64,000 bases of DNA from contig CM036759.1 in assembly GCA_020796225.1 (NCBI GenBank), forward strand, positions 67,122,590-67,186,589, given 5' to 3'. Below are positions 10,596 to 61,000 of the stretch, piece after piece. The notes beneath the pieces are model-generated. The model searched no databases. It worked only from the letters and a program-made list of their open reading frames with translations, and was not told the origin of the DNA. Source of the DNA: Arion vulgaris (taxonomy: Eukaryota > Mollusca > Gastropoda > Stylommatophora > Arionidae). Within the stretch, counting starts at the first letter, position 1. The number at the start of each line of letters is the position of its first letter. The translations under genes were made by a program, and so were the position numbers.

Positions 10596-10658
10596 TAGAC
10601 TCACTCAATATTCTCATTTTGAAAATTATTTTTGTTGACAGAAACAAGTTAAAGAATC

Positions 10659-10945
10659 ATGTCGTCAAACAGCAGTCTTCATCTCGGCTCTGAAAATGAT
10701 ATGTTCTTCTCTTCATCAAAGAGAGGAATTGGAAAAATACGTCTGTTTATATTTCTATTGATAGCTATCGTCATTGGTTTCATTGTTGGCATTCTGGTTG
10801 GAAAGTTTGCTATCAATGATGAGCAGCAGAACAACGAAGTTGTCGTTTCAGAAGAGTTTCAGCATATTCTCAGTGATGCTGATCCAAGCATTTCTCAACA
10901 AATTATTGATGCCATAGATCCTGCAAGGATAGAAGCTAACTTGAG
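10659..10945 (+). CDS. Exon 1: N-terminus and membrane anchor
   Basis: Starts at ATG 10659 and ends at a GT donor (TTGAG|gtattt), leaving two bases (AG). It encodes a Ser-rich cytosolic N-terminus with basic residues (SKRGIGKIR) and a hydrophobic helix, about residues 28-48 ([20 protein letters not shown]), as expected for a type II protein. The luminal part ends with ARIEANLR. A polypyrimidine/AG acceptor-like site at 10631-10641 suggests that a non-coding 5' exon lies upstream. Only the position and topology, not residue identity, support homology in this exon. The phase joins exactly to exon 2. Confidence 0.8.
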
Positions 10946-13900
10946 GTATTTTATTCATTTTATATACAGGGTGTTCAAGATTAAAGCAGCTCCATTGACA
11001 AATCGAAAGTTGCCAGTTACATATTGCGAGGTGTCTATTTACTATTTAAACTGGTTCTGACTAGCTAGCCCTACGTCACATTTGTTCATCGCCCCTTCCC
11101 GCACTACAATTACATACCGTCACACAACCTTGACCTATACTACGTCATAACTGAACCTTCTCATTTTCATAAATATATGCCAGATTGGCTCCATTTACAG
11201 GCTGCTTTTATCTTGAACACCATGAGTAAGCTCAACTTGAGGTATTTTATTCATTATATATATATATATATTTAAAACTATCTATTTGTGATTTTGAATC
11301 TAAGTGTTAGAGCTGTCCTCTGTATATCATGGACAGAGAAGAGAACAAATAGATATTTATATCTGAACGGAACTCAAAATGAAAGAAAACTCGATGAAGC
11401 TATAAATCATCATCATCATCATCAAATAGCTTGTCATGAGCATAAACTTTGCCATCCTAACAGTCCTTCGCAATTTCTCTCTCTTATAGACCAGATGTTC
11501 CGGATCTGCAACCGTCATTCTCAAATCATCAGTTACATTCCGAATCCATCTATTCCGCTGTCTTCTCTTTCCCGGGATGTCTCCTTCCATAACGGTGTTC
11601 CTAAACTCTTCGTGTCTCTTTATATGTCCAAAATACTTCAATTTTCTCATTCTTATTTGTAGTATCAGCTAGATTTCTTTGATTTTGAGTTCTTTCTGGA
11701 TAGATCTATTTGTTCTATTCTCTGTCCAAGATATACGAAGAACTCTTCTGTAACATTTATATTCAAAAGCACATATATATTTGATACCGTCTTTTTAAAT
11801 GTCCATGCTTCGCACCCATACGTTGCCACTGGAATTATGCATGCTGTTAGTATTCTGATCTTTGTTTTCTTATTAGTTCCATTCTATACTGTTTTTAGTT
11901 GTTTTATTTTTGGTAAAACCATGTTTGTTGCTATAATGAAGACACCTATGACAAGTAATGCAGATATCACACTGGAATCTAAAATGATAAAAATAACAGA
12001 GCAGTTCACCTATTTTGGTAGTAATTTTGATTGCACAGGAAATGTTGAAAAATATATTATGATATTATGATATTGTCAAAGCAACATCAGCTTTTAAAAG
12101 TCTAAATAAAATATGGAACTGCAAGTTATATAGTATTAAAACTAAATTATGAATTTTCAATTCAAATGTTGTATCAATCCTAACATATGCCAGCGAGAGT
12201 TGGAAAATGACTAAAATAGAATATAAGTTGAATGCATTTGAAAATAGATGTCTGCGAAAAATAATGAATATAAATGGAACGAATTCAGGAGAAATGATGA
12301 AATCAGAGAAATGTCTGGTCAACCACTAGTGACAACTGTTATAAGAAAGAGAAGATGGAGATATCAAAAAATATCAAAGCAGGCATTGAAGTGAGATGCA
12401 AATGGTTCAAGAAAGAGACGACGACCTAAGGAGATCATAAAGCAAACGTTGCTGAAAGAGGCAAGAAATATCGGCCTCAGTTCCATGGAGGAGATTGAGC
12501 GAGTTGCCCAGAATAGAACGGTATGAGAAATTGCCCATGTAACGTATAACGGTATGAGAGAAATTATTAATTAATTTGTGGTTCTTTTAATTTTCTTCAT
12601 TTTTAAATAAATTTAATTAAAACATTACTAATCATATCTCAGGTACCTCTCCCAGATACCGCATATAGCAGGGAGACAGGCAGACTTTGATCTTGTGGAG
12701 ATGTTAAAATCAAGGTTCATAGACAACGGACTGCAAGTGCAGATAACGCCATACGACGTACTATTGTCGTATCCTAGCAACGAGACGCCGAATTCAGTCC
12801 GGCTATTGGACGCTAATGGCACGGTTGTTTACGATGCTAAACATGATGAGAGTAACATTTCTCAGTATCAGGATGTGGTGCCACCATTCAATGCCTACTC
12901 CCCATGTCGTCTTGTAGAGGTAAGTCTGTACAATATCAGGATGTGGTGCCTCCATTCAATGCATACTCCCCATGTCGTCTTGTAGAGGTAAGTCTGTACA
13001 ATATCAGGATGTGGTGCCTCCATTCAATGCATACTCCCCATGTCGTCTTGTAGAGGTAAGTCTGCACTGTACAGTGCTTCGACACAGTGTTTAAATTATA
13101 GGTCACAGTACTCCGTTGTTAAGTCCCATTATTCAAATATCAGATCAGACGAAAGGTCATAGTCCATGAACCTCAGGTAACAGTTCACCATATGTTCAAG
13201 TGGGTGGTATTACCCCCAGGGGCGCTGAAGTCTTTAGGCGATAGTGAGTTCAACAATTGGGGAGTGTTCAGTTGATCTAGGGATCGATGGCTCCTTATAG
13301 AAGAAATTATTAATATACATTTAAAAATACATTATTTTCGTGATTTTTCGATTGAATAACTGTGTTCAAGATAATGCCTATATTGACTACTATTTTTTCA
13401 ATACTTTAACAACATAAGTAGTCATGTATCATTCATTGCTATTTACGTTGGAAATATCAAACTGCTTGAACGAGGGAAAATGTTATAATGGGGAGGGGGA
13501 GGTGGCTATGGAGGGAAAGGGGGCGTTACAAAATTTATGTCTCGCAAAGTGGGCGGTATCCCGAAAAAGTTTGGGAACCTATGCAGTACACGAATGTCAG
13601 GTCATAGCAACTCACATTAACTTTTTGTCACAGTTAATGATGCATTAACAGATTAACCATTTTGCCCTTCTCAGCCGATATACGGCTTTAGCGACATTTT
13701 TAAGAAAAAAACAGTGTACAAGAATTACGAGCTCCTGAAAATACAGATTGACAAACACAGGATTCGAACCACTTATCCTTATTTCTTACGACACCCATCG
13801 CCTAGCCTAGCAATACGATCATCCTTACGATCACCCATCGCCTAGCCTAGCAATACGATCATCCTTACGATCAACCATCGCCTAGCCTAGCAATACGATC

Positions 13901-19900: not shown

Positions 19901-22218
19901 CATTACTAGTCCTATCTCAGTGTAGGTGAGATCGAGTTACTAGTCCTATCTCAGTGTAGGTGAGATCTAGTTACTAGTCCTATCTCAGTGTAGGTGAGAT
20001 CTAGTTACTAGTCCTATCTCAGTGTAGGTGAGATCGAGTTACTAGTCCTATCTCAGTGTAGGTGAGACGGTTACTAGTCCTATCTCAGTGTAGGTGAGAT
20101 CAGTTACTAGTCCTATCTCAATGTAGGTGAGATCAGTTACTAGTCTATCCATGTGGTGAGTGAGTTACTAGTCCATCTCAGTGTAGAGATCGTTACTAGT
20201 CCTATCTCAGTGAGGTGAGATCAGTTACTAGTCCTATCTCAGTGTAGGTGAGATCGAGTTACTAGTCCTATCTCAGTATAGGTGAGATCGAGTTACTAGT
20301 CCTATCTCAGTGTAGGTGAGATCAGTTACAGTCCTATCTCATGTAGGTGAGATCAGTTCAGTCACATGGTGAGATCGAGTTACTAGTCTATTCAGTGTAG
20401 GTGAGATCGAGTTACTAGTCCTATCTCAGTGTAGGTGAGATCTAGTTACTAGTCCTATCTCAGTGTAGGTGAGATCTAGTTACTAGTCCTATCTCAGTGT
20501 AGGTGAGATCTAGTTACTAGTCCTATCTCAGTGTAGGTGAGATCGAGTTACTAGTCCTATCTCAGTATAGGTGAGATGGAGTTACTAGTCCTATCTCAGT
20601 GTAGGTGAGATCTAGTTACTAGTCCTATCTCAGTGTAGGTGAGATCGAGTTACTAGTCATATCTAAGTGTTGGTGAGATCGAGTTACTAGTCCTATCTCA
20701 GTGTAGGTGAGATCTAGTTACTAGTCCTATCTCAGTGTAGGTGAGATCTAGTTACTAGTCCTATCTCAGTGTAGGTGAGATCGAGTTACTAGTCCTATCT
20801 CAGTATAGGTGAGATCGAGTTACTAGTCCTATCTCAGTGTAGGTGAGATCTAGTTACTAGTCCTATCTCAGTGTAGGTGAGATCGAGTTACTAGTCATAT
20901 CTAAGTGTTGGTGAGATCGAGTTACTAGTCCTATCTCAGTGTAGGTGAGATCGAGTTACTAGTCCTATCTCAGTGTAGGTGAGATCGAGTTACTAGTCCT
21001 ATCTCAGTGTAGGTGAGATCGAGTTACTAGTCCTATCTCAGTATAGGTGAGATCGAGTTACTAGTCCTATCTCAGTGTAGGTGAGATCTAGTTACTAGTC
21101 CTATCTCAGTGTAGGTGAGATCGAGTTACTAGTCATATCTAAGTGTTGGTGAGATCGAGTTACTAGTCCTATCTCAGTGTAGGTGAGATCGAGTTACTAG
21201 TCCTATCTCAGTGTAGGTGAGATCGAGTTACTAGTCCTATCTCAGTGTAGGTGAGATCGAGTTACTAGTCATATCTCAGTGTAGGTGAGATCGAGTTACT
21301 AGTCCTTTCGGAGATGGACGATAAAACATAGTTCATGTGTGCCAGTTGAGCACATAAAAGAATCCTTGGCAGTCCACAATAGAGAAGAGCAAGCTGGAAA
21401 GACTCTGCAAGTGTAAACTTATTCATCATCAAATAGCTTGTCCTGAGCAGAACTTTGCCACCCCAACAGTCCTCCGGAATTTCTCTCTCTCTCATAGGCC
21501 AGATGTCCTGACTCTGCAGCCGTCATGTTCAAACCATCAGTTACATCCTGAATCCATCTTCTCCGTGGTCTTCCTCTTCTTCTCTTTGCCGGTATGCCTC
21601 CTTCCATGATGGTCTTCTTCAGCACTTCATGTCTTTTTATATGTCCAAAATATCTCAATAAAAAATACATTCCCAACAAAATAATTTACCATATTCTACA
21701 CTATATCAGGGACTTTCGGTGTTAACGAGTTCGTGCTCTGCTGATGAGATCTTTCTGTGCAAGAAAAAGATCAGAGCACACATGGTTACTTACCGAAATG
21801 CAATGATAGTGGTACTATCAATCACTCAATCAATCAATCAATCAATCAATTAATCCGATCTTAAGACAGCAATAAAATTATGTTAAAGTCGAATTGTCAA
21901 AACATAAAGTGACTTAGTTTTACAAAAGGCGGAAAAAGCTACAGCAATGTTTCTACAAAAAGGTCTTCATCATATAACTGACACAGTTGAAGTGTACTAA
22001 AATTACTTACATTATTACAGGGTCCCCTGGTGTATGCTGGATATGGTAGAGTTGAAGATTATATCTGGTTGAAACAGAACAACATTACTGTGACTGGAAA
22101 CATTGTTATTGTGAAGTATGGTCGCATTTTCAGAGGAGACAAAGTGAGTCACAAATATGAATTCTCTTTTTTGTTGTCTGTTTCGGAAACTTGTCCAGTT
22201 CCCAGTTAAATCATCAGT

Positions 22219-22268
<50 letters not shown>

Positions 22269-22962
22269 GATCAAATAGCTTGTCTGTGTAGAACTTGGTC
22301 ACCTTAAGTGTATGTTTTGTAGAAGTTACATTTGATGTTGGTGTGTGAAAATGACGTAAAAACCAAGTACAGTAGTTTTACAAAAACAATAACAATACAC
22401 ATCAACGTTTCGATCAAATGACCTTTATCGAGCTTATGTGTGAATTCACAACCAATGATCTCCTATGTAGTGTAAGGAAAACAAAGAATAGTACCACTGC
22501 GATCTACAAGGCATGTCGTAAGAGGCTGCTGATGTATAACCTAGGGAAGCTACCATAGTAAATAAAAAGTATCGCAGAAATCGGATGTGCTGGCTTACTT
22601 GTAGGCGCATAACTGACACAACGTAACTCGCTCTTAGGCTCAAATTACATACAAATCACACAGAGGCTTTAACAAGTGGTCGATATGGAGCGTTAGAAGA
22701 AGAAGAAGAAGAAGAAGAAGAAAAGAAGAAGAAGAAGAAGAGAAGAAGAAGAAGAAAAAGAGAAGAAGAAGAAGAAGAAGAGAAGAAGAAGAAGAAGAAG
22801 AAGAGAAGAAGAAGAAGAAGAGAAGAAGAAGAAGAAGAAGAAGAAAGAAGAAGAAGAAGAAGAAGAAGAAGAAGAAGAAGAAGAAGAAGAAGAAGAAGAA
22901 GAAGAAGAAGAAGAAGAAGAAGAAGAAGAAGAAGAAGAAGAAGAAGAAGAGAGAAGAAGAAG

Positions 22963-22994
<32 letters not shown>

Positions 22995-23082
22995 GAAGAA
23001 GAAGAAGAAGTAGAAGAAGAAGAAGAAGAAAAGAAGAAGAAGAAGAAGAAGAAGAAGAAGAAGAAGAAGAAGAAGAAGAAAG

Positions 23083-23113
<31 letters not shown>

Positions 23114-37033: not shown

Positions 37034-40000
37034 CGTGCTGGTAGGATTGAGGATATGACTACTGTGTAGAGCGGACGAGCAAAGGACCAGGGTGACGTTC
37101 TGAATTATTTCAGAAAAGGTGGAGACTGCAGTAAAACTTGGAAAATAGCTAAACACGTTAACACAAAGTATTACAGTTTTACAAAATACATAAACAGTGA
37201 CGATAAACAGCAACGTTTCGACCAAAAGGCCTTTATCACAAATAATACAACAAGAATGACGAATTTCGAGGAACACTACAATGGACGATTACATGTTGAA
37301 ACATAAACCTATCTAATGAAAATCTGGGAATAAAAACGAACAACGAAATGAGTGGACACAAAAAACCGAAAGTGGAAAAGAACAATAAACAATATAGTGG
37401 ATAAATGACACATATAGGGAGCAAACACACATATAGATAACAAGGCACGAGATAAGACAGTACTAAGAGCATAGGAATGTAATGCGTTGAGTCCAGAGGT
37501 CGAAAGTGCCATAGAATGAGATAAAACGGTTCTCAGGCGATCGACTGCGATCATCGGAGGAACATGATCGGATGGCTGTGACCTGGACATCGTCAACTCC
37601 TGAATGGCCAGTATCGTTGAAATGGGTGCCACAGGAGTCACAGAGCATTGGCGAATATCGCGTAAGTGTTTGGCGAATCGGTCACTGAGTCTCTTACCGG
37701 TTTCGCCAATATAGGACTTGTTGCATCGTTTGCAGGTGATGGCATAGATGATATTGAGGGACTCACACGTGAAACTGTCTTGAATGGCATACGTAGCTTT
37801 TGGAAAGAGACAGTGCGGGTCTGTATTACATATGCACATGTGTAACATCGTCGACGTCCGCACTGGATGGTGCCAAGTGACTCTGGATATTAGGCTTGAG
37901 GCGACTGTGTACCAACAAATCCTGAGGCTTCTGTCCCGTCTGTAAGCCACCAAAGGATAGTGTTGGAAGACTGGACGTGTCTCAGGATCAGACTGAAGAA
38001 TAGGGAGATGATGGAATAAGACCTTTTCACCAGGGAACTATGAGGGTGGAAAGTTAAGATGAGTTTAACCCTGTCAGAATTGGGGTTCTAGCATGTGAGA
38101 GAGGGCCTCCTGGCGAGCAATTAGCTGTACCCGATGCATGGCAGATGTAAGCACATTCTCCGGGTATAAGCGCTGGCGGAAGAAATCCAGCATCTCGTGA
38201 GCTTTATCAAGAAAATCGTCGTCCTCACTACAGAGGCGACGAAGGCGTAAGAGTTGAGAGAAGGTAAAGAGTCACGACAGGCCTGGGGATGGGAAGAGGT
38301 ATACAGAAGAAAGCTATGTGTATCAGTAGGCTTGTAGTATACTGATGTAGTGATAGTGGATAGGCTGATGGTGATAGTGATGTCAAGAAAATTGACACAG
38401 GAGGTAGAGATGTTAGAGGTGAACCGAATAGCAGGATTGAAGGCATTGATGAAGGTGATGAAGCGTGACAAATCGGCTTCAGACATATCGGTAACTCCAA
38501 TACAATCATCGATGTATCTATGATACACGGACGGAAGAAGGCCATCATAGGTGTTCCATACTAAGTGTTCGAGATGACCCATGAATAGACAAGCATAGCT
38601 GGGTCCCATTTTAGTACCCATGGCGACCCACTAATCTGTTCGAAGAACTGGTCATTGAACTGAAAGGAGTTGAGAGTGAGAACTAGTTCTGCAAGACGAA
38701 GGAGAGTCGAGGTGGAGACAAGAGGGTTAGTTCTCCTGTCGAGAAAAACTGGAGAGCTTGGAGTCCGTCAGAATGAGGTATAGAGGTATACAGTGAACAG
38801 ACATCAAGGAGGAAGAGACGATAAGTCCTGCCAGGCAACAACTTAATAGAAGAAAAACAGACAAAGTGTGGTTAGTGTCTTTCAAGAATGAAGGTAGTGT
38901 GGTGACTATAGGATTGAAGATACTATCAAGGAATTCGGAGATATGTTCCGTAGGACAAGAGCAAGCAGAAACAATAGGCCTACCAGGATTGTGAAGTTTA
39001 TGAATTTTTGGGAGCATATAGAATGCGGGTTTGCCCAAACAACTGTCGATGATACATAGTGATGATGCGCCGGTAGGAAGGTCTTTTGAGGCAATGAGGT
39101 TCTTGATGACTGTACGGACCTTACTATTGTTGGATAGTGTGGCATCAGAAGGAATATTATTGTAGAATAGGGTGTTACGGAGTTGGTTGTGGCCTTCCTG
39201 TAGGTATAGTTCTTTACTCCATACGACTATGGCACCACCTTTGTCAGCAGGTTTGATAACAATGTCATCACGTCGACGGAGGTGTGATAGAGCACGAAAC
39301 TCGGACGGTGACATGTTAGAACGCCCTAGGCGTTTAGGGTGGAGAAGTCCAATGTCGTATGTAGTATTCTTGATGTAGAGATCAAGAGCGTTAGAGGCAC
39401 CAGGTTTAGGAGTCCCAAACATGCTTGCGAGTGGAACAACCAACTCCGTAACACCCTATTCTACAATAATATTCCTTCTGATGCCACACTATCCAACAAT
39501 AGTAAGGTCCGTACAGTCATCAAGAACCTCATTGCCTCAAAAGACCTTCCTACCAGCGCATCATCACTATGTATCATCGACAGTTGTTTGGGCAAACCCG
39601 CATTCTATATGCTCCCAAAATTCATAAACTTCACAATCCCGGTAGGCCTATTGTTTCTGCTTGCTCTTGTCCTACGGAACATATCTCCGAATTTCTTGAT
39701 AGTATCTTCAATCCTATAGTCACCACACCACCTTCATTCTTGAAAGACACTAACCACACTTTGTCTGTTTTTTCTTCTATTAAGTTGTTGCCTGGCAGGA
39801 CTTATCGTCTCTTCCTCCCTGATGTCTGTTCACTGTATACCTCTATACCTCATTCTGACGACTCCAAGCTCTCCAGTTTTTCTCGACAGGAGAACTAACC
39901 CTCTTGTCTCCACCTCGACTCTCCTTCGTCTTGCAGAACTAGTTCTCACTCTCAACTCCTTCAGTTCAATGACCAGTTCTTCGAACAGATTAGTGGGGTC

Positions 40001-43000
40001 GCCATGGGTACTAAAATGGGACCCAGCTATGCTTGTCTATTCATGGTCATCTCGAACACTTAGTATGGAACACCTATGATGGCCTTCTTCCGTCCGTGTA
40101 TCATAGATACATCGATGATTGTATTGGAGTTACCGATATGTCTGAAGCCGATTTGTCACGCTTCATCACCTTCATCAATGCCTTCAATCCTGCTATTCGG
40201 TTCACCTCTCACATCTCTACCTCCGTGTCAATTTTCTTGACATCACTATCACCATCAGCCTATCCACTATCACTACATCAGTATACTACAAGCCTACTGA
40301 TACACATAGCGTTCTTCTGTATACCTCTTCCCATCCCCAGGCCTGTCGTGACTCTTTACCTTCTCCCAACTCTACGCCTTCGTCGCCTCTGTAGTGAGGA
40401 CGACGATTTTCTTGATAAAGCTCACGAGATGCTGGATTTCTTCCGCCAGCGCTTATACCCGGAGAATGTGCTTACATCTGCCATGCATCGGGTACAGCTA
40501 ATTGCTCGCCAGGAGGCCCTCTCTCACATGCATAGAACCCCCCAATTCTGACAGGGTTAAACTCATCTTAACTTTCCACCCTCATAGTTCCCTGGTGAAA
40601 AGGTCTTATTCCATCATCTCCCTATTCTTCAGTCTGATCCTGAGACACGTCCAGTCTTCCAACACTATCCTTGGTGGCTTACAGACGGGACAGAAGCCTC
40701 AAGGATTTGTTGGTACACCGTCGCCTCAAGCCTAATATCCAGAGTCACTTTGGCACCATCCAGTGCGGACGTCGACGATGTTACACATGTGCATATGTAA
40801 TACAGACCCGCACTGTCTCTTTCCAAAAGCTACGTATGCCATTCAAGACAGTTTCACGTGTGAGTCCCGTAATATCATCTATGCCATCACCTGCAAACGA
40901 TGCAACAAGTCCTATATTGGCGAAACCGGTAAGAGACTCAGTGACCGATTCGCCCAACACTTACGCGATATTCGCCAATGCCCGACTCTGTGGCTACCAT
41001 TTCAACGATACTGGCCATTCAAGAGTTGACGATGTCCAGGTCACAGCCATCCGATCATGTTCCTCCGATGATCGCAGTCGATTCGCCCTGGAGAACCGTT
41101 TTATCTCATTCTATGGCACTTTGCGACCTCTTGGACTCAACGCATTACATTCCTATGCTTCTTAGTACTGTCTTATCTCGTGCCTTGTTATCTATATGTG
41201 TGTTTGCTCCATATATGTGTCATTTATCCACTATATTGTTTATTGTTTCTCTTCTTTTCCACTTTCGGTTTTTGTGTCCACTCATTTCGTTGTTCGTTTT
41301 ATTCCCAGATTTTCATTAGATAGGTTTATGTTTCCACATGTAATCGTCCATTTGTAGTGTTCCTCGAAATTCGTCATTCTTGTTGTATTATTTGCTTGAT
41401 AAAGGCCTTTTGGTCGAAACGTTGCTGTTTATCGTCACTGTTTATGTATTTTGTAAAACTGTAATACTTTGTGTTAACGTGTTTAGCTATTGAATTATTT
41501 CAGTAAGAGATTGCGTGGAAACGATTCAAGTAATGGTGGTAAATCTGCAACCCTAACCAGACTGCAAGAATGTAAAATCAAATGTGACGCAGTTAGACAA
41601 GTGACGCAGTTAGACAAGTGACGCAGTTAGACAAGTGACGCAGTTAGACAAGTGACGCAGTTAGACAAGTGACGCAGTTAGACAAGTGACGCAGTTAGAC
41701 AAGTGACGCAGTTAGACAAGAGACGCAGTTAGACAAGAGACGCAGTTAGACAAGAGACGCAGTTAGACAAGTGACGCAGTTAGACAAGAGACGCAGTTAG
41801 ACAAGTGACGCAGTTAGACAAGAGACGCAGTTAGACAAGAGACGCAGTTAGACAAGAGACGCAGTTAGACAAGTGACGCAGTTAGACAAGTGACGCAGTT
41901 AGACAAGTGAGGCAGTTAGACAAGATCGCTTTACTGTCTTTCATAATAGAAAAGAAGTAAAACTGCCCACAAGTACATGTATACCTTGCCCATACTGTAC
42001 AGGAACATTCCAAGCCCGCATCGGGCTCACTAGTCATCTACGCACACACAGACAAACATAACGCAACTACATTTACTTGGATGAAAATTGTGTGGTCATC
42101 ATCACCCGTGATGGACGAGCATCATCACCCGTGATGGACGAGCATCATCACCCGTGATGGACGAGCATCATCACCCGTGATGGACGAGCATCATCACCCG
42201 TGATGGACGAGCATCATCACCCGTGATGGACGAGCATCATCACCCATGATGGAGGAGCATCATCACCCGAGATGGACGAGCATCATCACCCATGATGGAG
42301 GAGCATCATCACCCGAGATGGACGAGCATCATCACCACTGGTAGTCAAAGAAGAATAGTAAACCAGCATAGAACTGGTGTAATGAGTTGAAAGCTATCCT
42401 CGGTGTACTAGTAAACCAACATAGAACTAGTGTAATGAGTTGAAAGCTATTCTCGGTGTACTAGTAAACCAGCATAGAACTGGTGTAATGAGTTGAAAGC
42501 TATCCTCGGTGTACTAGTAAACCAACATAGAACTGATGTAATGCGTTGAAAGTTATCCTGCGTGTACTAGTGAACTCATTTAAACGCACCACCATTCAAT
42601 GGATACCATCACACTTCAATATAAGCGGAAATGAACAAGCTGACAAGCTAGTGAAAGAAGGCGGGCGACTATCACAGACTGATCAGGAGATCAGCTATGA
42701 GGCAAGAACAACCATCGGTTGACATTACAAAGAAAAGTGGTCGAAAGACCACCCACAACACAGCAGCAGAGATGGGTACTATTGTCCATACCGAAACGAA
42801 CAAGCTACTATATTCCGCCTCGAACTGGCCATAACAGGCTTCGGGCCTACATGTTCAACAAATTTAAAATTGGCACAACTAACCTGTACCACTGCGAAAA
42901 GGCGGACATGACAGCAGAGCACATACTGCAAGACTGCCAGTTGTTAGCAGGCACGAGAAGCGAAACCTGGCCCGTTAATTAACAGAGAGCTTCGTGAAAA

Positions 43001-46000
43001 GCTGTACGGAGAGTTGTGAAAGCTGCTACAGAGAGATGTGAGAAGCTGTACAGAGAGATGTGAGAAGCTGTACAGAGAGATGTGAGAAGCTGTACAAAAG
43101 ATGTGAGAAGCTGTACAGAGAGATGTGAGAAGATGTACAGAGAGATGTGAGAAGCTGTACAGAGAGATGTGAGAAGCTGTACAGAGAGATGTGAGAAGAT
43201 GTACAGAGAGATGTGAGCAACTGTACAGAGAGATGTGAGAAGCTGTACAGAGAGATGTGAGAAGCTGTACAGAGAGATGTGAGAAGATGTACAGAGAGAT
43301 GTGAGAAGCTGTACAGAGAGATGTGAGAAACTGTACAGAGAGATGTGAGAAGCTGTACAGAGAGATGTGAGAAGCTGTACAGAGAGATGTGAGAAGCTGT
43401 ACAGAGAGATGTGAGAAGCTGTACAGAAAATGTGAGAAGATGTACAGAGAGATGTGAGAAGCTGTACAGAGAGATGTGAGAAACTGTACAGAGAGATGTG
43501 AGAAGATGTACAGAGAGATGTGAGAAGCTGTACAGAGAGATGTGAGAAGATGTACAGAGAGATGTGAGAAGCTGTACAGAGAGATGTGAGAAACTGTACA
43601 GAGAGATGTGAGAAGCTGTACAGAGAGAGGGAGAGCTGTACAGAGAGATGGAGAAGATGTACAGAGAGATGAGAAGCTGTACAGAGATGTGAGAAGCTGT
43701 ACAGAAAATGTGGAAGATGTACAGAGAGATGTGAGAAGCTGTACAGAGAGATGTGAGAAACTGTACAGAGAGATGTGAGAAGCTGTACAGAGAGATGTGA
43801 GAAGATGTACAGAGAGATGTGAGAAACTGTACAGAGAGATGTGAGAAACTGTACAGAGAGATGTGAGAAGCTGTACAGAGAGATGTGAGAAGATGTACAG
43901 AGAGATGTGAGAAGATGTACAGAGAGATGTGAGAAGATGTACAGAGAGATGTGAGAAGCTGTACAGAGAGATGGAGAAACTGTACAGAGATGTGAGAGCT
44001 GTACAGAGAGATGTGAGAAGCTGTAAAGAGAGATGTGAGAAGCTGTACAGAGAGATGTGAGAAGATGTACAGAGAGATGTGAGAAGCTGTACAGAGAGAT
44101 GTGAGAAACTGTACAGAGAGATGTGAGAAGCTGTACAGAGAGATGTGAGAAGATGTACAGAGAGATGTGAGAAACTGTACAGAGAGATGTGAGAAACTGT
44201 ACAGAGAGATGTGAGAAGCTGTACAGAAAATGTGAGAAGATGTACAGAGAGATGTGAGAAGATGTACAGAGAGATGTGAGAAGCTGTACAGAGAGATGTG
44301 AGAAGAGGTACGGAGAGACGGAGTCCCTAAAAACAACAGTACAATTCATGATAAAATTTGGTTCATCGGTCTAGGTGGGGATCGACAGAGAGAGAGAAAC
44401 TGGTGTCGCTAGTTGCCACACGCTGAGAGACATACTAAGGAGGAGGAGATCGAAGCACTTATGGACTAATTAGTTGAATGTGCAGTGATGATGATCCGGC
44501 GACTAAACTAGAACTGGTGTCGTTAGTCGCCACACGCTGAGGAGATCGGAGTACTTATAAACTAATTGGTTCGATGCGCAGTGATAATGATCTGACAACT
44601 AAACTAAAACCTCGTGCTCCGCATATGTCATGGACAGAGAAGAGAACAAATATATATATATATATATATCCAGAAATAACTCAACATCACAGAAGACTGG
44701 TTACTGTTACAAATAAGAATGAGAAAACCGGTTACTGTTACAAATAAGAATAAGAAAACTGGTTAATGTTATAAATAAGAATAAGAAAACTGGTTAATGT
44801 TACATGTTACAAATAAGAATAAGAAAACTGGTTAATGTTACATGTTACAAATAAGAATGAGAAAACTGGTTAATGTTACAAATAAGAATGAGAAAACTGG
44901 TTAATGTTATAAATAAGAATAAGAAAACTGGTTAATGTTACAAATAAGAATAAGAAAACTGGTTAATGTTACAAATAAGAATAAGAAAACTGGTTAATGT
45001 TACAAATAAGAATAAGAAAACTGGTTAATATTACAAATAAGAAAACTAGTTAATGTTACAAATAAGAATAAGAAAACTGTAGTATTTTGGACATTGAAAA
45101 AGACACGAAGGATTGGATAAAACCATTATGAAAGGAGACATACCTGCGGATAGGAAAGGAGACATACCTGCAGATAGGAAAGGAGACATACCTGCAGATA
45201 GGAAAGGAGACATACCTGCAGATAGGAAAGGAGACATACCTACAGATAGGAAAGGAGACATACCTGCAGATAGGAAAGGAGACATACCTGCAGATAGGAA
45301 AAGAGACATACCTGCAGATAGGAAAGGAGACATAGCTGCAGATAGGAAAGGAGACATACTCAGATAGGAAAGAGACATACCTGCAGATAGGAAAAGAGAC
45401 ATACCTGCAGATAGGAAAAGAGACATACCTGCAGATAGGAAAAGAGACATACCTGCAGATAGGAAAAGAGACATACCTGCAGATAGGAAAGGAGACATAT
45501 CTGCAGATAGGAAAGGAGACATACCTGCAGATAGGAAAAGAGACATACCTGCAGATAGGAAAGGAGACATACCTGCAGATAGGAAAAGAGACATACCTGC
45601 AGATAGGAAAAGAGACATACCTGCAGATAGGAAAAGAGACATACCTGCAGATGGGAAAAAGAGACATACCTGCAGATAGGAAAAGAGACATACCTGCAGA
45701 TAGGAAAAGAGACATACCTGCAGATAGGAAAAGAGACATACCTGCAGATAGGAAAAGAGACATACCTGCAGATAGGAAAAGAGACATACCTGCAGATAGG
45801 AAAAGAGACATACCTGCAGATAGGAAAAGAGACATACCTGCAGATAGGAAAAGAGACATACCTGCAGATAGGAAAAGAGACATACCTGCAGATAGGAAAA
45901 GAGACATACCTGCAGATAGGAAAAGAGACATACCTGCAGATAGGAAAAGAGACATACCTGCAGATAGGAAAGGAGACATAGCTGCAGATAGGAAAGGAGA

Positions 46001-49000
46001 CATACCTCCATATAGGAAAAGAGACATACCTGCAGATAGGAAAAGAGACATACCTGCAGATAGGAAAAGAGACATACCTGCAGATAGGAAAAGAGACATA
46101 CCTGCAGATAGGAAAAGAGACATACCTGCAGATAGGAAAAGAGACATACCTGCAGATAGGAAAGAGACATACCTGCAGATAGGAAAAGAACATACCTGCA
46201 GATAGGAAAGAGACATACCTGCAGATAGGAAAAGAGAATACACTGCAGATGGGAAAAGACATACCTGCAGATAGGAAAAGAGACATACCTGCAGATAGGA
46301 AAAGAGACATACCTGCAGATAGGAAAAGAGACATACCTGCAGATAGGAAAAGAGACATACCTGCAGATAGGAAAAGAGACATACCTGCAGATAGGAAAAG
46401 AGACATACCTGCAGATAGGAAAAGAGACATACCTGCAGATATGAAAAGAGACATACCTGCAGATAGGAAAGGAGACATACCTGCAGATAGGAAAAGAGAC
46501 ATACCTGCAGATAGAAAAAAGAGACATACCTGCAGATAGGAAAAGAGACATACCTGCAGATAGGAAAAGAGACATACCTGCAGATAGGAAAAGAGACATC
46601 CCTGCAGATAGGAAAAGAGACATACCTGCAGATAGGAAAGGAGACATACCTGCAGATAGGAAAAGAGACATACCTGCAGATAGGAAGGAGACATACCTGC
46701 AGATAGGAAAAAAGACATACCTGCAGATAGGAAAAGAGACATACCTGCAGATAGGAAAAGAGACATACCTGCAGATAGGAAAGAGACATACCTGCAGATA
46801 GGAAAGAGACATACCTGCAGATGGGAAAAGGGGAGACATACCTGCAGATAGGAAAAGAGACATACCTGCAGATGGGAAAAAGAGACATACCTGCAGATAG
46901 GAAAAGAGACATACCTGCAGATAGGAAAAGAGACATCCCTGCAGATAGGAAAAGAGACATACCTGCAGATAGGAAAGGAGACATACCTGCAGATAGGAAA
47001 GGAGACATACCTGCAGATAGGAAAGGAGACATACCTGCAGATAGGAAAAGAGACATACCTGCAGATAGTAAAGAGACATACCTGCAGATAGGAAAAGAGA
47101 CATACCTGCAGATAGGAAAAGAGACATACCTGCAGATAGGAAAAGAGACATACCTGCAGATAGGAAAAGAGACATACCTGCAGATAGGAAAGGAGATATA
47201 CCTGCAGATAGGAAAAGAGACATACCTGCAGATCGGAAAAGAGACATACCTGCAGATAGGAAAAGAGACATACCTGCAGATAGGAAAAGAGACATACCTG
47301 CAGATAGAAAAAAGAGACATACCTGCAGATAGGAAAAGAGACATACCTGCAGATAGGAAAAGAGACATACCTGCAGATAGGAAAAGAGACATACCTGCAG
47401 ATAGGAAAAGAGGGACCCATGTGTTGCCGGGACTTGCAAGGGAGCAAGAATAGTAATACTGCAACCTACAAGGCATGTCGTAAGAGGCGACTGATGTAGG
47501 GGACTAGGAAGCACCCTAGCAAATAAAAATCATCGCTGAAATCGTATGTGCTGTCTTACTTGTAGGCGCATAACTGGCACAACGTACAATCGCTCTTAGA
47601 CTCGGACCACATACAAATCACAAAGAATGGCTAACATGTGCACGATATGGAGCGTTCGAAAAGAAAAGAAGAAGAAGGAAAAGAGGAAGACCACATAAAA
47701 GATGGATTCAGGATGTAACTAATGATTTGAACATGGCGGTGTCAGAGGCGGAACATGATTTGAACATGGCGGTGTCAGAGGCGGAACATGATTTGAACAT
47801 GGCGGTGTCAGAGGCGGAACATGATTTGAACATGGCGGTGTCAGAGGCGGAACATGATTTGAACATGTCAGTGTCAGAGGCGGAACATCTCTGACATATG
47901 AGAGATATTTCCAATGATTGTTGCTATGGTGACAATGTTCTGCTGAGAACGAGCTGTTGTTATGGTGACAATGTTCTGCTCAGAACGAGCTGTTGTTATG
48001 GTGACAATGTTCTGCTCAGAACGAGCTGTTGCTATGGTGACAATGTTCTGCTCAGAACGAGCTGTTGTTATGGTGACGATGTTCTGCTCAGAACGAGCTG
48101 TTGTTATGGTGACAATGTTCTGCAGAGAACGAGCTGTTGTTATGGTGACAATGTTCTGCTCAGAACGAGCTGTTGTTATGGTGACAATGTTCTCCTCAGA
48201 ACGAGCTGTTGCTATGGTGACAATGTTCTGCAGAGAACGAGCTGTTGTTATGGTGACAATGTTCTGCTCAGAACGAGCTGTTGTTATGGTGACAATGTTC
48301 TGCTCAGAACGAGCTGTTGTTATGGTGACAATGTTCTGCACAGAACGAGCTGTGGTTATGGTGACAATGTTCTGCTCAGAACGAGCTGTTGTTATGGTGA
48401 CAATGTTCTGCTCAGAACGAGCTGTTGCTATGGTGACAATGTTCTGCAGAGACGCAGCTGTTGTTATGGTGACAATGTTCTGCTCAGAACGAGCTGTTGT
48501 TATGGTGACAATGTTCTGCTCAGAACGAGCTGTTGTTATGGTGACAATGTTCTGCACAGAACAAGCTGTTGCTATGGTGACAATGTTCTGCTCAGAACAA
48601 GCTGTTGTTATGGTGACAGTGTTCTGCTCAGAACGAGCTGTTGTTATGGTGACAATGTTCTGCAGAGAACGAGCTGTTGTTATGGTGACAATGTTCTGCT
48701 CAGAACGAACTGTTGTTATGGTGACAATGTTCTGCTCAGAACGAGCTGTTGTTATGGTGACAATGTTCTGCTCAGAACGAGCTGTTGTTATGGTGACAAT
48801 GTTCTGCTCAGAACGAGCTGTTGTTATGGTGACAATGTTCTGCTCAGAACGAGCTGTTGTTATGGTGACAATGTTCTGCTCAGAACGAGCTGTTGTTATG
48901 GTGACAATGTTCTGCAGAGAACGAGCTGTTGTTATGGTGACAATGTTCTGCCCCAGAACGAACTGTTGTTATGGTGACAATGTTCTGCTCAGAACGAGCT

Positions 49001-52000
49001 GTTGTTATGGTGACAATGTTCTGCAGAGAACGAGCTGTTGTTATGGTGACAATGTTCTGCTCAGAACGAGCTGTTGTTATGGTGACAATGTTCTGCAGAG
49101 AACGAGCTGTTGTTATGGTGACAATGTTCTGCTCAGAACGAGCTGTTGTTATGGTGACAATGTTCTGCTCAGAACGAGCTGTTGTTATGGTGACAATGTT
49201 CTGCAGAGAACGAGCTGTTGTTATGGTGACAATGTTCTGCAGTGAACGAGCTGTTGCTATGGTGACAATGTTCTGCTCAGAACGAGCTGTTGTTATGGTG
49301 ACAATGTTCTGCTCAGAACGAGCTGTTGCTATGGTGACAATGTTCTGCTCAGAACGAGCTGTTGTTATGGTGACAATGTTCTGCTCAGAACGAGCTGTTG
49401 TTATGGTGACGATGTTCTGCTCAGAACGAGCTGTTGTTATGGTGACAATGTTCTGCTCAGAACGAGCTGTTGTTATGGTGACAATGTTCTGCTCAGAACG
49501 AGCTGTTTGATGAACAATGGTGAAACACGTAATAACAAGGTACTGGAGTTTGACAATATACAAAAACAATGACAATACAAAGCAACGTTTCCACCAACAA
49601 GGACTTTATCAAGTAAACGATACAACATGAGTGACGAATTTCACAGCACACTACATATAGACTACGATAGAGATATTTCAACTTTCATAAAATGTTATTA
49701 CGTGTTGGGCATTTTACATAGTTTTACTGCAGTTCCCCACCCTCCCTATATGTTTGATGAAATGCGTTTAGAAGCTTTAGTATAAAGCGAATGCGATGTA
49801 CGAAAATTTATAAATCTGAGGCGGTCAGACCAGACCAGATCAGATCTGGAGAAAACTGAAGATCGACTCGAGGTATCCTGACCACAGATCACACTTGAGG
49901 ATCGAAACTTCAAGTACAGCTGAGGTTGGTGAAGGCTATCCTGCATGGCGAGGGACACTCATATAACGGTAAGCAGGCATTCACGCAACAATCAATTAGG
50001 ATCACCACCCAATGTGCCATGGCTGCGCCCGAGTGCATAGCGGGCAGAAAAAAAAGCCGGTTATGAATGAAATTGTTTCTAGTTGTTGTATTATCAGTGA
50101 TATATTTCTCAATGTTGCTGTAGTTGTTGTATTATCAGTGATACATTTCTCAATGTTGCTATAATTGTTGTATTATCAGTGATACATTTCTCAATGTTAC
50201 TATAGTTGTTGTATTATCAGTGATACATTTCTCAATGTTGCTATTATTGTTGTATTATCAGTGATACATTTCTCAATGTTGCTATAGTTGTTGTATTATC
50301 AGTGATACATTTCTCAATGTTGCTATAGTTGTTGTATTATCAGTGATACATTTCTCAATGTTATTATTGTTGTTGTATTATCAGTGATACATTTCTCAAT
50401 GTTGCTATTGTTGTATTATCAGTAATACATTTCTCAATGTTGCTATTGTTGTTGTATTATCAGTGATACATTTCACAATGTTGCTATAGTTGTTGTATTA
50501 TCAGTGATACATTTCTCAATGTTGCTATTGTTGTATTATCAGTGATACATTTCTCAATGTTGCTATTATTGTTGTATTATCAGTGATACATTTCTCAATG
50601 TTGCTATTGTTGTTGTATTATCAGTGATACATTTCTCAATGTTGCTATTGTTGTTGTATTATCAGTGATACATTTCTCAATGTTGCTATTGTTGTTGTAT
50701 TATCAGTGATACATTTCTCAATGTTGCTATTGTTGTTGTATTATCAGTGATACATTTCTCAATGTTGCTATTGTTGTTGTATTATCAGTAATATATATCA
50801 CAATGTTGCTGTTCTAGGAAAATTCAGTTGAACGTAACAACAAAAATGAAAGAGCAAGGTGGAGAACGTTTTCGGCATCATCAAAGGTTTCGTTGACCCG
50901 GTGCTCTAGATGACTAGAGTAAGTTGATAAAGATTTACCATTATCATTGTCATTATTCATCATTATATCACCATCACCATCATAACATCATCTTCACCAC
51001 ATCTTTAACGTTCTATCATCCATCATTGTTGTTGTCTACAACCATCATCACTTTTACCTCCAGCATCATTCTCATCATCATTATCATCACCCCATTCCAG
51101 CATCATCATCCTCGCCATCATTGTCGCTGACCTGATCATCACATCACAAACATTACTATACCTCGTTTATTCCTTATGTGAGTGATCGAATTTACGATCA
51201 TTGCAACGTTTCTAACCAGTTCCCCTTTTCTTCTTCTTCTTCTTCTTCTCTCGTAAGCCCGCTTTTAAATTTCCCAGACGGAAAGTCGACACCGGGTTTG
51301 CGCCCCGGACTGATCTTTGCTCGACCTATATTACCGTTGTTATGATGTCCTCAAGCATATGCACAGCCTGCTTGACTTCAGAGGACTTGAAGATTAGATC
51401 CTTCAAGGGAGATCGTTGCAGGAGACCTGTTGTCCCTCTAACTCTGTCTCGGACAGAGTTAGTTATTGTGAAGGCAGAACGGATGACTTCTCTATCGGCT
51501 TCCCTGCCGGAACTCGTTCCATACGCATCGTAAGATAATCACTCTTTAATTATCTTTGTTGTGCCATCTAGGTGTCTGAATTATTGCAATATTACATTTT
51601 ACTGACATATGTTATGTTATGTGATCGACGTCATGGCACATTGGGCACTCCCATTCGTGCTCTTCCTCCGCTGCAGCAACCACCCTAAAGTCCATTTGCT
51701 CAACGTATTCATGAGAAGTTGATTAGTATACCTTCTCTCTCTCTACCACGACGACGTCACTGTCTGGCATGTCCAAACTTAACTACTAATTCTTGCATTC
51801 GTTCCAGTGTCTGAGTCCCGCCCATATCACATAAATGAGAGCGTGCCGCATTGATGACATCGACTCTGTCAATACCTCTGTCCGCTTGAGTCTGGGCATT
51901 GTTTGCAAGACAGTCAACTCGCTCGTTACCATGCACACCAGCATGTCTATGTGTGTACAGTCAAATCATTTTCTTGTGAAGTGATATCCGAATGCAATCC

Positions 52001-55000: not shown

Positions 55001-58000
55001 ACACTGTGGGTTTACTGAATACATAAAGACAAAAACAATGTCTGTTTTTAATATATGATAAATAAATTTATTTTCTTCAGAAATGAAAAGAACCTTGCTT
55101 TACATTAAAGTAATGACCAAAAAAAAAATGTGTCATAATGAAATGAGAAATATAAGTGTTTTTTTAGAAATGAAAATGTTTTTTAAAAATGAAATTGCAA
55201 AAATTTGTGTTTTTTCTGAAAGGAATGACACACCTCGACACCTCCCCAAAAAGAAACGTGTTTCTTCTCACAAAATAACAACATTTTTGTATCTGTAAGA
55301 AATAACATGAAAATAAAAAAAACAGTTTGTATCTGTAAGAAATAACATGAAAATAACAAAAACAGTTTGTATCTGGAAGAAATGACATGAAAATAACAGT
55401 GGTTTATTTAACAAGAATTTACACATGACCAACTTTCATTTCAGGTGTATGGCGACCACGCAGAACGATTGTCTTTTGTTCTTGGGGTGCTGAAGAATAT
55501 GGGCTTGTTGGATCGACAGAATGGGTTGAGGTATGTAATCTGCATTCTTTCTTGTCTAATGTTATTTCATTGCTATTGTTTTTTTATTTGTTTGGGGAGT
55601 CTGCACATTGTAGTGGTAATAGTATCAATTCTCATCACTTCGCTCGTGTGATGTCGGCGCTCAAGGGAGCAAAGAATAGTATCACTGCCACCTACAAGGC
55701 ATTTCGTAAGAGACGACTGATGTAGGACCTAGAGAAGCTGTCTAATAAATAAAAGCATCGCAGAAATCGGATGTGCTGTTCTACTTGTAGGCGCATAACT
55801 GACACAACATACAATCGCTCTTAGGCTCAAGTCACATACCAATCACACAGAGTAGGGTCGGTATGGAACATTCGAAGAAGAAGAATCAAATAGCTTGTGC
55901 TGGGCAGAACTCTGCCACCCTAACAGTCCTTTGGAATCTCTCTTCCTAATAAGCCAGATGTCCCGTCTCTACAGCTGTCATGCTCGAATCATCAGTTACA
56001 TCTTGAATCCATCTTTCTTCTTCCTGGTCTCACGGGCGTCACTAGGGTGCGGGGGTGCGGGCCACCGGTGACACCATCAAGGGGTGACACCAAAATAAAA
56101 AATTGCAAATTTGACAAAGCAGACATAGCTCTGTCTAGTCTGGTTTCATAACCGTTCATTGTTAAATACATGCAGGCACGGGGTGCCACCATGGAGACCA
56201 CTTTCTATGATGATCTATCCGGAGTAGAGCTTTTAAAAGAAATACCAAGGCTGAGAAGACACCTGAAGGCAGCAGATATTGATATCCACAAAGCCAAAGA
56301 CTGGTCAATGTTGATATTTTAAAATTCATAGTTGACTGGGATTTCCTTGAATCTCTCCCAATACTCTCACTAAGCCTACAACTATTTCTTACGATCTGTG
56401 TGTCTGTGGCTTCATGTGAGAGGAGCTTTTCAAAACTGAAACTTATAAAGAACTATTTGCGATCAACCATGGGACAGTCAAGACTTTCTGATCTGGCTAT
56501 ATTATCAATTGAAAGTGATATGGTGAAAGATATTGATTTTGATGATGTGATTGGCAGGTTTGCAGCTTTGAAGACCAGGAAAGGAAACTTTTAAATAACA
56601 AAAATTTAACTTTGTCCGAGTTTGTCGAAGTTCTTTATTTATGTTTTACCTGAAGTATTGAAGTTATATTGTTCAATTTGTTTTCTTTCTTATGTCCTTA
56701 TTAACTTTTTGACTTATTTTACAAACATTACTATATGCGCTTATATATGGTACAAGAGAGGTGACACCAAGAGTTTACCGCACTGTGTGACACCAACCCC
56801 AGTGACGCCACTGCCTGGTCTTCCTCTTCTCCTATTTGCCGGGATACCTATTTTCATAATATTTGTCTCCAACCCTTCTTGTCTCTTTGACAAAATGAAA
56901 GTCTTGGCATATATTTTATATGACTTTGCCATCAACCACAGTAAACGAGTCGTCGATTTTCTAGCCACCACTTATAAGTTCTCTAGTCTACTATTGCTTT
57001 ATGAACGGTGATGTTCGTAACTCTTGTTTTACTCTTCCTTCCACAGGAACGAATTTGTTTCCCAAAATTTCCGCCGCTGTGTTTGAACCAGGTGCGCTTG
57101 TGTTGTGATCGAGCTCACTAGCGCTTAAGCTACAGACGCCCATGTGTCTCTTTATATGTTCCAAATAGTGTTTTTTATATGTCCCAAATAGTGTCTCTTT
57201 ATATGTCCCAAATAGTTCCATTTCCTCATTCTTATTTGTAACATCAGATAGTTTTATTTGATTTTGAGATCTTTGGTTTGAAGTACTTACGACACAAGAT
57301 CTCTACGTCCCCCCCAAAAACACAAACTTCTATAAAGAAGAGAAGAAGAAGAAGAAGAAGGTGAGTACATCACCGATGTACTATCTTCAATTCCAGTTGT
57401 ATCAATTCCAGTTGTATCAATTCCTTGTTCTGTTAAGTTGAAAATGTGTACTCGGATTGAACTGCGGAAAGTTTGAAAGCTTAATTGCTACTACGTAAGA
57501 GTTTTGTCGTCGGTACTTTCAGTTACCTGGAAGGGAATGCGTGCATATAGATCATCATCATGAGTGTATGGATGTTGAAGGTATATCATTTTTGTGGTGT
57601 GCAGAGGAAGTTCGTACCTGAGAACGGGTGACCGAATGACAATCAATCAATCAATCATTCAAAGGTCAAGCAAGCAATGATTATGAATTCAAGTAGGGAA
57701 GAAAGAGGTCAAGAAAGTAGTAGGCAAACAAGTAGAGAGTAGACAAACAAGAAATTAGTAGGCAATCAAGAAAATTAGTAGGCAAACAAGAAATTAGTAG
57801 GCAAACAAGTAGAGAGTAGACAAACAAGAAATTAGTGAGCAAGCAAGAAATTAGTAGGCAAACAAGTAATTAGTAGGCAAACAAGAAATTAGTAGGCAAA
57901 CAAGTAATTAGTAGGCAAACAATAAATTAGTGAGGAAGCAAGAAATTAGTAGGCAAACAAGTAATTAGTAGACAAACAAATAATTAGTAGGCAAACAATA

Positions 58001-61000
58001 AAATAGTAGGCAAACAAATAATTAGTAGGCAAACTAGTAATAGCGATAGAAAAGAAATGAGTACACTACAGCTAAGACCATCAAACTTGAACTTTGAACT
58101 AGTTTCGCTTGAATTCCTAAAATAATGTGTACAAAATTAATGTTATTACAAGGTCGATGCTAGTGACGTTGATAATGCGTTACTCTAGTGACTGCGGGCC
58201 GGGAAAAATTGTTTGTGTCTTGAGGCCACATTTTCAGTGTGCGCGCCGTAGTTAATAGGACGTTGATAATGCGTTGCTCTAGTGACAGCGCCGTAGTTAA
58301 AATGACTTTGACTTATTCCTCTTCGGTCCTCGTGGAGAATAGGGCCTCAACAGTTGTTGGCCACTTTTCCAGATCTCTGGTTGTTTTTTTAGTCTCCGCG
58401 GAAAGTCGTGCACCTTTCAGTTCCTCAAGAATACTCCATCTCCAGGTCTGTTTAGTACGTCCTCTTTTCCGTTTTCGTGGTTTCACTCAAATTCGGTCTA
58501 GCGACACTCGGCTGTGTGTTTCATAGGGTATGCCCGACTCATCGCCATTTTCTCCTCCAGGGTCATCACGGGTTCATATCCGGTTCTTATCCACAGGTCT
58601 GTGTTTGCACCTCTATCATACCATCTCAGTCTGAGAATAGGTCAAAGACATCCTGCACCTCTATCATACCATCTCAGTCTGAGAATAGGTCAAAGACATC
58701 CTGCACCTCTATCATACCATCTCAGTCTGAGAATAGGTCAAAGACATCCTGCACCTCTATCATACCATCTCAGTCTGAGAATAGGTCAAAGACATCCACT
58801 GACAAAGGTCTAAACCTTATTTGTATTTAACTTGGTGACTCACCACGTTTCCGAGCCATGCAGCAACACAGATTTCACATTTGAGATGATTATCCTGAGC
58901 TTTGATTGAGTGGAGATGGTAGTTAAATAATATTGATTGATTGGTTGATTGATTGCTATGACCTTCATCAATGCACTTCGGTGATTAACCATGTGTGCAT
59001 CGATATCTTTCTTACACAGCAAGATCTCAGCTGCAGTGCACGAACTCCGTAGCAACGGCGAGGGTCCCCAATATAATTTTGAAGATTGTAAATATTATTT
59101 ATAGGAATTTTATTTCAATATTTTTCTAATGAATTTTGCCCAGGCAGCGTCTTACCAGTCTGCTCTTTTCGATTTGGAACTGTCAAGTGTTCTTTTACGT
59201 GCTCAAATCGAACACGGAAATTACTTTCATCGTCCATCTCCGATAGGACTAAGAACTCGATCTCACCGACACTGAGATCATGGATTTCTTGAAAAAGTGC
59301 CGATGGCTCTACAAAGTAGCGAACCGGCTGCCTCTGGCATGAAAGGTGATCATGTAATCACTACGCTACAGAGACACCACTAAATAAGTGAAATAATTGA
59401 ATTGTAAAATAAGATTCCATTGTCCAAGAGTAAAATTGTGTTATTTCAGCAATACGTGTCCACTCTACGAGAAAGAGCTGTTGCATATATTAATGTTGAT
59501 CTCGCTATCGAAGGTAAACAACATGTGATTGTTCATCAATGTTTACAACTTCATTCTGTGTATTCATTTCTGCTTCTTCTTCTTCTTCTTCTTCTGCATG
59601 GTAGTTGTTGTTGTTACAGTTTGCTTATTCGTCGCCCGAGAGGTTACAGGCCCAAATTTGGGGTCTAAAGAATAGAACCACTATTACCTTCAAGCACGTC
59701 GTAAGATGCGACTAAGGAGGTTTGGCTGAAATCGGATGAGGTATCCTAAACGCGTAGAAGTCTATGCGTTTAGGGCCTTCCAAACCAATGTGCAACGTAT
59801 ACACGTTCTTGGTAAAGATCAAACATATCACAAAGAGTGATTAAAATTGATGGTAAAGAACGAAAGCAAAGAAGAAGAAGAAGTAGAAGACTTATTGGAG
59901 AATTTGATTCTGTTTTTCCTCTGTTCTTACTTTCTTCTGTTTCTTTCGTCGAAAGCTTCATATCGACCATTTGTTAAACTAATCTTTGTAATTTGTTAAA
60001 CCAATCTTTGTAATTTGTTAAACTAATCTTTGTAATTTGTTAAACTAATCTTTGTGATTTGTTAAACTAATCTTTGTGATTTGTTAAACTAATCTTTGTG
60101 ATTTGTTAAACCAATCTTTGTAATTTGTTATACTAATCTTTGTAATTTGTTAAACAACTTTGTGATTTGTTAAACCAATCTTTGTAATTTGTTAAACCAC
60201 TCTTTGTAATTTGTTAAACTAATCTTTGTGATTTGTTAAACCAATCTTTGTAATTTGTTAAACCAATCTTTGTAATTTGTTAAACTAATCTTTGTAATTT
60301 GTTAAACTAATCTTTGTAATTTGTTAAACTAATCTTTGTAATTTGTTAAACTAATCTTTGTAATTTGTTAAACTAATCTTTGTAATTTGTTAAACTAATC
60401 TTTGTAATTTGTTAAACCACTCTTTGTAATTTGTTAAACTAATCTTTGTAATTTGTTAAACTAATCTTTGTAATTTGTTAAACTAATCTTTGTAATTTGT
60501 TAAACTAATCTTTGTAATTTGTTAAACTAATCTTTGTAATTTGTTAAACTAATCTTTGTGATTTGTTAAACTAATCTTTGTAATTTGTTAAACTAATCTT
60601 TGTGATTTGTTAAACTAATCTTTGTAATTTGTTAAACCACTCTTTGTAATTTGTTAAACTAATCTTTGTAATTTGTTAAACTAATCTTTGTAATTTGTTA
60701 AACTAATCTTTGTAATTTGTTAAACCACTCTTTGTGATTTGTATGTGAACTCGTTCGTGTGTTGATGGGGCCCACAAGGGAAGCAAAGAATAGTACCACT
60801 GCCACCTACAAGGCATGTCGTAAGAGGCGACTGATGTTGGACCTAGGGATGACATAAAGTGGTTAACAAGTGGTCGATATGGAGCGTTCAAAGAAGAAGA
60901 AGAGGAAAGATGAAGAAGTGTGTGATCTGAGTCTAAGAGCGATTGTACGATGTGCCAGTTATGCTCCTACAAGTAGACCAGCACAATCGATATCTCGACG

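Follow-up and report, generated by a model that had tools for sequence, protein, structure and literature searches.

Four minisatellite arrays formed in situ in one LINE copy of Arion vulgaris, and a possible association of arrays with SINE 5' ends

In human DNA, 7,276 minisatellite arrays derived from transposable elements (TEs) have been counted, 23% of minisatellites (PMC3389668). The same survey describes duplication between flanking repeats of 5 to 20 bp as one accepted, minority route (300 human arrays), attributes just 6% of element-derived tandem repeats to established mechanisms, and reports that most of the arrays unexplained by known mechanisms have two units. That one element can hold several arrays is known already from soybean, where the 3' region of the Gmr9/GmOgre retrotransposon carries five distinct minisatellites (PMC3305785). 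In Lathyrus sativus, satellites derive from long terminal repeat (LTR) retrotransposons, whose internal short arrays expand mainly in the primary constrictions (PMC7004042). Here we describe a long interspersed nuclear element (LINE) copy in the gastropod Arion vulgaris that contains four minisatellite arrays. It lies in a 64,000-nt stretch of contig CM036759.1 (assembly GCA_020796225.1, forward-strand positions 67,122,590 to 67,186,589), hereafter the window, to which all coordinates refer.

We conclude that the four arrays are TE-derived minisatellites formed in situ in a single LINE copy after its insertion, and that the locus is a very clear new example of documented element-derived arrays. 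As with the human arrays described in PMC3389668, they were born in a single element copy and grew by local duplication; unlike those, four lie in one 371-nt copy, they reach 95 units, and minisatellites cover 39% of the window. GmOgre, as presented in PMC3305785, is a family of LTR elements with interleaved, family-carried arrays, whereas the arrays studied here occupy separate points and, within the window, are confined to a single LINE copy. The lengthening of short arrays within retrotransposons is shared with Lathyrus, where the elements differ in being LTR retrotransposons with short arrays of their own (PMC7004042). A literature search on minisatellite-rich genomes produced no match, and one for multiple arrays within a non-LTR element returned a single paper, on sugar beet. 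Arrays were called with Tandem Repeats Finder (TRF), and the locus is laid out as follows.

44614..49513, plus strand: LINE copy, 5'-truncated (end of the coding region, stop, short TGA run), from the collapsed alignment, tblastn and BLAST pieces; left end approximate
44691..45079, plus strand: 31-bp array, 12.3 copies (TRF), unit from the LINE segment at the same point
45130..47412, plus strand: 24-bp array, 95.3 copies (TRF), with 27 distinct among 95 units
47413..47685, plus strand: insert of 273 bp resembling a short interspersed nuclear element (SINE), family S47; the span includes the 3' target-site duplication copy AGGAAAAGAG
47722..47888, plus strand: 33-bp array, 5.1 copies (TRF)
47919..49507, plus strand: 36-bp array, 44.1 copies (TRF)

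Reduced to one unit per array and stripped of the SINE-like insert, the locus measures 371 nt; as found, it occupies nearly 5,000 bases. The insert separates the 24-bp from the 33-bp array and is flanked on both sides by AGGAAAAGAG, the 5' copy of which coincides with the partial unit that closes the 24-bp array. This LINE copy also contains a further expansion of microsatellite scale, a TA run at about 44651-44670. A preliminary description of the window had placed arrays of 31, 24 (about 95 copies), 33 and 36 bp (about 44 copies) in one LINE, and the TRF counts agree with it. Its inventory of four arrays stands but overlooked the SINE-like insert, the TA run and a third LINE copy with an array of its own, and what it called a 0.5-kb tail is an ancestral stretch of about 0.37 kb.

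The aligned stretch is the end of the coding region and not an untranslated tail. A search with the copy at 11.4 kb found P0001, a protein of 137 residues encoded on a public contig; a protein search for relatives returned two matches, both on short contigs, and a Pfam search of P0001 identified no domain. We tentatively take the stretch to be the C-terminus of a LINE polymerase. Two features expected of a non-LTR retrotransposon are present, a 5' end truncated at variable positions and simple repeats at the 3' end: the alignable parts of the copies begin at different points, the copies at 11.4 and 21.4 kb run past the stop into TGA repeats and the studied copy into a short one, and the third copy (55.9-57.3 kb) ends TTTGATTC. 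The insert at 47413-47685 likewise has the SINE traits of dispersed copies (six others plus fragments in the window) and a target-site duplication; in the search for an RNA polymerase III-type head, ARAGORN found no tRNA across the window and Rfam had no match at the insert.

The evidence for formation in situ comes from comparison with other copies, meaning here, as in every copy comparison below, copies inside the window.

11405..11760, minus strand: unexpanded LINE copy (alignment)
21415..21660, minus strand: unexpanded, more truncated LINE copy that stops short of the 31-bp slot (alignment)
55882..57290, minus strand: third LINE copy, interrupted twice, by SINE2 (a SINE) and by an insert whose ends are hAT-like; all four slots single (alignment)
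57144..57216, minus strand: 24-bp array, 3.1 copies, in the third LINE copy, directly at the 5' end of SINE2 and at a different LINE point

By eye, SINE2 is bounded on both sides by AAAGAGACA, and the insert at 56050-56816 with hAT-like ends by an 8-bp duplication, AGACCAGG. Short LINE fragments, such as 11280-11407 and 22255-22303, were left out of the comparison; the former, on the plus strand, adjoins the 3' end of the minus-strand 11.4-kb copy and forms an inverted pair with it.

The collapsed locus aligns to the copy at 11405-11760 with 73.5% identity over 347 columns, to that at 21415-21660 with 74.4% over 242 columns, and to the joined pieces of 55882-57290 with 71.9% over 299 columns; these three diverge from one another by 17-23%. 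In the collapsed alignment the 31-, 24-, 33- and 36-bp units each occupy one slot, with their order kept, and every unit is covered by 23-33 columns in each copy that reaches its slot. The 31-bp slot is single in both of the other copies that reach it, and the 24-, 33- and 36-bp slots are single in all three. Against the other copies, the unit consensi reach scores of 41 (31 bp), 29 (24 bp), 35 (33 bp) and 42 (36 bp), values matched by 0, 3, 0 and 0 of 300 shuffles, respectively, so that the mapping of the 24-bp unit is the weaker; 13 hand-picked control units from other arrays in the window score at most 22 on either strand against the LINE copies. P0001 has no array by eye, and tblastn places its residues 30-120 on the collapsed locus in a single match (47%, E 1e-24, with stops left in) running across the slots of the 31-, 24- and 33-bp arrays. 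Elsewhere in the window none of the 22 matches of 44300-50080 is an array of these units. Because no alignable copy (two or three per slot) is arrayed at the same slot, amplification came after insertion. The preliminary description had likewise derived each unit from the LINE segment at its point, named the copies at 11.4 and 21.4 kb as unexpanded, and proposed repeated local tandem amplification in a single retroelement copy; the colinear pieces with units in the gaps, seen against all three copies, bear this out. Neither arrays at these slots nor units foreign to the LINE were seen in the copies examined. Its wider suggestion, that each such copy can seed several satellite families, is not supported: among four alignable tails, two have no array, the third copy has a single three-copy array at another point, and only one has four.

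The borders of the four segments suggest how the arrays began. Once the arrays are collapsed, AGAAGACTG / AGAAAACTG flank the 31-bp seed (P=0.010) and GAAAGGAG / GAAAAGAG the 24-bp seed (P=0.041); summed over the four seeds, the border score reaches 17, where the null mean is 9.4 (P=0.003). The first seven units of the 24-bp array have the left-border form GAAAGGAG, while the right-border form GAAAAGAG is commoner afterwards, and in the 31-bp array the second unit combines the two border forms. These patterns are expected if the first duplication joined at the border repeat. The model of Haber and Louis, as described in PMC3389668, in which a minisatellite seed lies between short direct repeats, fits the 31- and 24-bp seeds, whereas the 33-bp seed has just 2 bp of border identity. 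As to growth, no clear higher-order or block periodicity was found in the 24- and 36-bp arrays, where the mean distance between units is nearly independent of lag; lag values and the distinct-unit count of the 31-bp array were not used, as greedy segmentation slipped around indels. As a gauge of border repeats across the window, TRF copy numbers lie within 0.15 of a whole number in 22 of 41 cases, against 12.3 expected if uniform, which is suggestive only. Three of the four arrays have periods that are multiples of three (24, 33, 36); we take this as chance, since just 10 of the 41 window minisatellites have such periods.

We therefore propose the following history, in which we infer both slippage, as the step making and enlarging the arrays, and the order of events. 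A 5'-truncated non-LTR retrotransposon copy would have inserted here and decayed. Later, single duplications of segments of 24-36 bp would have arisen at four points apart from one another; replication slippage or copying primed by microhomology, acting between short direct border repeats, is the most likely cause. Each duplication would then have enlarged to an array through more slippage or unequal exchange. A SINE would also have integrated at the right-hand edge of the 24-bp segment, either before the 24-bp array grew or afterwards. Very probably, then, this is a decayed LINE copy seeded by slippage at four points whose arrays then grew, the LINE being the substrate and not the cause.

That the LINE is substrate and not cause follows from the operation of the same array process across the whole window. 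We count 59 merged tandem-repeat loci covering 43% of it, among them 41 minisatellites (minimum period 10, minimum copy number 2.8) totaling 25,251 bp, 39% of the window, or about one per collapsed kilobase (collapsed window about 40 kb). In-situ arrays also occur in other repeats: a 34-bp array at 19741-21306 with four unexpanded relatives, a 48-bp array at 58606-58797 with one unexpanded relative, and a 22-bp array at 59969-60742 inside a reversed S47 copy. Since SINE copies and another repeat are thus arrayed in situ as well, LINE tails hold no special place; of 82 array flanks, 52 have no match elsewhere in the window. Random placement puts at least four arrays within about 500 collapsed bp in 32% of trials (1610/5000), compared with four within 700 here when the SINE is counted; with the SINE omitted, the four array starts fall within 223 bp, which 5.4% of random placements equal. 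Four arrays in one LINE copy, which the preliminary description found striking, are less exceptional than their appearance suggests.

Several other arrays have structures of their own. At 13702-14968, inverted arms (62 nt, 92%; 40 nt, 85%) enclose 27 copies of a 40-bp unit, an arrangement resembling a foldback element that has tandem repeats inside; at 34585-35020 a related flank accompanies a 39-bp array derived from the same segment. Related 16/32-bp units form arrays at 16000-16974 and 25463-26064, which have 56 bp of right flank in common (82%); one may have been copied from the other, or both may lie within one dispersed element.

Some observations weigh against seeding by slippage at border repeats. 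The borders of the 36-bp seed (TGTT / TGTT, 4 bp) are not significant singly (P=0.148), nor is the 2-bp identity at the 33-bp seed (P=0.798), and the alignment of the 48-bp array at 58606-58797 has no border repeat by eye. The interval 41.6-50.8 kb holds nine arrays in 2.2 collapsed kb, five of them outside the LINE (scan P=0.03), which hints at regional instability beyond uniform slippage. The copy comparison is limited to the window, and the array lengths rest on one assembly sequence, so assembly error is possible. Such an artefact is nevertheless very improbable as an explanation of the arrays, for their distinct units (27 of 95 in the 24-bp array, 16 of 44 in the 36-bp array) and the uneven placement of variants along the 24-bp array are unlike a simple duplicated-read error. 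Arrays might instead have been present in the source element and copied along with the LINE; fixed minisatellites are known in other retrotransposons, among them GmOgre (PMC3305785). Judged on the copies in the window, such inheritance is unlikely, indeed hardly credible, given that none of the two or three alignable copies per slot is arrayed and P0001 has no array by eye.

A different kind of question arises from the position of arrays relative to SINEs. An array edge lies within 20 bp on the 5' side of 7 of 13 SINE copies, belonging to three families, and on the 3' side of none of the 13, where the nearest edge is at 36 bp. The 5' distances are 0 for the SINEs at 47413 and 57143, 5 bp at 9493, 8 at 60751, 14 at 4080 and 19 at 19647; the array at 63176 extends 11 bp into the SINE head and is scored as distance 0. 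With a chance per SINE end of 0.022, a naive binomial gives P 3.7e-9 for 7/13. At a cut-off of 12 bp, 5 of 13 5' ends qualify, and at 40 bp, 7 of 13 5' ends against 1 of 13 3' ends. Removal of the copies on which the pattern was discovered (47413, 57143 and 19647) leaves 4/10 (P=4.3e-5), and removal of the nested pair as well leaves 3/8 (P=5e-4). Arrays are distant from the SINEs at 10322 (834 bp), 55640 (241), 36572 (66) and 59378 (590), and from the 5'-truncated SINEs at 22484 (1177 bp) and 61089 (1136); the head of the SINE at 10322 is, by eye, repeated weakly three-fold. The 13-copy set replaced a smaller one, in which 5 of 9 copies had an edge within 16 bp, and excludes SINE3 pieces that lack a head (about 26.3, 34.3 and 61.2 kb) as well as fragments of S47 (59.7 and 59.9-60.7 kb). 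A 776-bp AGA run (22695-23470) at the 3' end of a SINE of family S47 looks as though a GAA tail had expanded.

This adjacency could mean that SINE insertion itself seeds arrays: repair of the 5' junction would re-copy the target flank via a short border repeat, and the resulting tandem duplication, ending in the 5' target-site duplication, would grow later. Besides the 5'-side excess, the junctions at 47413 and 57143 are of the expected form, as in both the repeated unit comes from the target LINE and the array stops on the 5' target-site duplication (AGGAAAAGAG at the former, AAAGAGACA plus one base at the latter), and near 60749 the unit is target SINE sequence and a partial unit overlaps a less certain duplicated site. 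Set against these are the post hoc nature of the pattern, drawn from one window with family ends set by eye and BLAST, and a binomial that assumes independent ends where arrays in fact cluster. Moreover, 6 of 13 SINE copies lack an array within 20 bp, headless fragments are uncounted, the array unit at 63176 may include SINE sequence (the 11-bp overlap), and no duplicated site was recognised there or at 9493. Three of the four arrays in the stretched LINE touch no SINE 5' end; seeding by insertion would cover the 24-bp array and some arrays elsewhere, not all four, and we regard it as unlikely. The same adjacency would also be explained if SINEs favored the borders of existing arrays, so that target choice and not seeding brought them together; purine-rich array DNA could suit the nicking enzyme. 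Insertion into an array, however, usually leaves array on both sides, and the 3' side is single LINE sequence at 47413 and 57143, which makes target choice improbable. Chance in an array-rich region remains a further possible account.

The window contains other elements. Pieces that appear Penelope-like by eye lie in both orientations at 37309-41165, one with a GIY-YIG domain, and a further retroelement, containing reverse transcriptase pieces (PF00078; of two matches, one is below the curated cut-off), lies at 5977-7614. A sub-threshold Rfam match to the drz-agam-1 ribozyme falls at 26583-26663 (29.3 bits, gathering 37, E 0.083). Open pieces at 10653-26400 resemble, by eye, exons of a glutamate carboxypeptidase-type gene; Pfam returned no match for three of them.

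Returning to slippage in a decayed LINE copy as the preferred account, the locus records the birth of a minisatellite four times in 371 nt, with seed position, borders and growth readable against a known unexpanded form. Slippage seeds could be tested statistically in a genome where several copies of known repeats contain arrays. The part that may be new is the pattern at SINE junctions, for which a literature search on arrays at such junctions found nothing relevant. That SINE insertion creates minisatellites, 5'-junction repair re-copying the target flank so that the seed duplication ends in the target-site duplication, is in our judgment a doubtful proposition. If it were true, mobile elements would be a directional source of minisatellites, acting on the 5' side only and drawing on target DNA, not on the element. 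Known mechanisms explain just 6% of element-derived tandem repeats in the human survey (PMC3389668), which leaves room for other starting events of such arrays, and SINE insertion junctions may be one of them.

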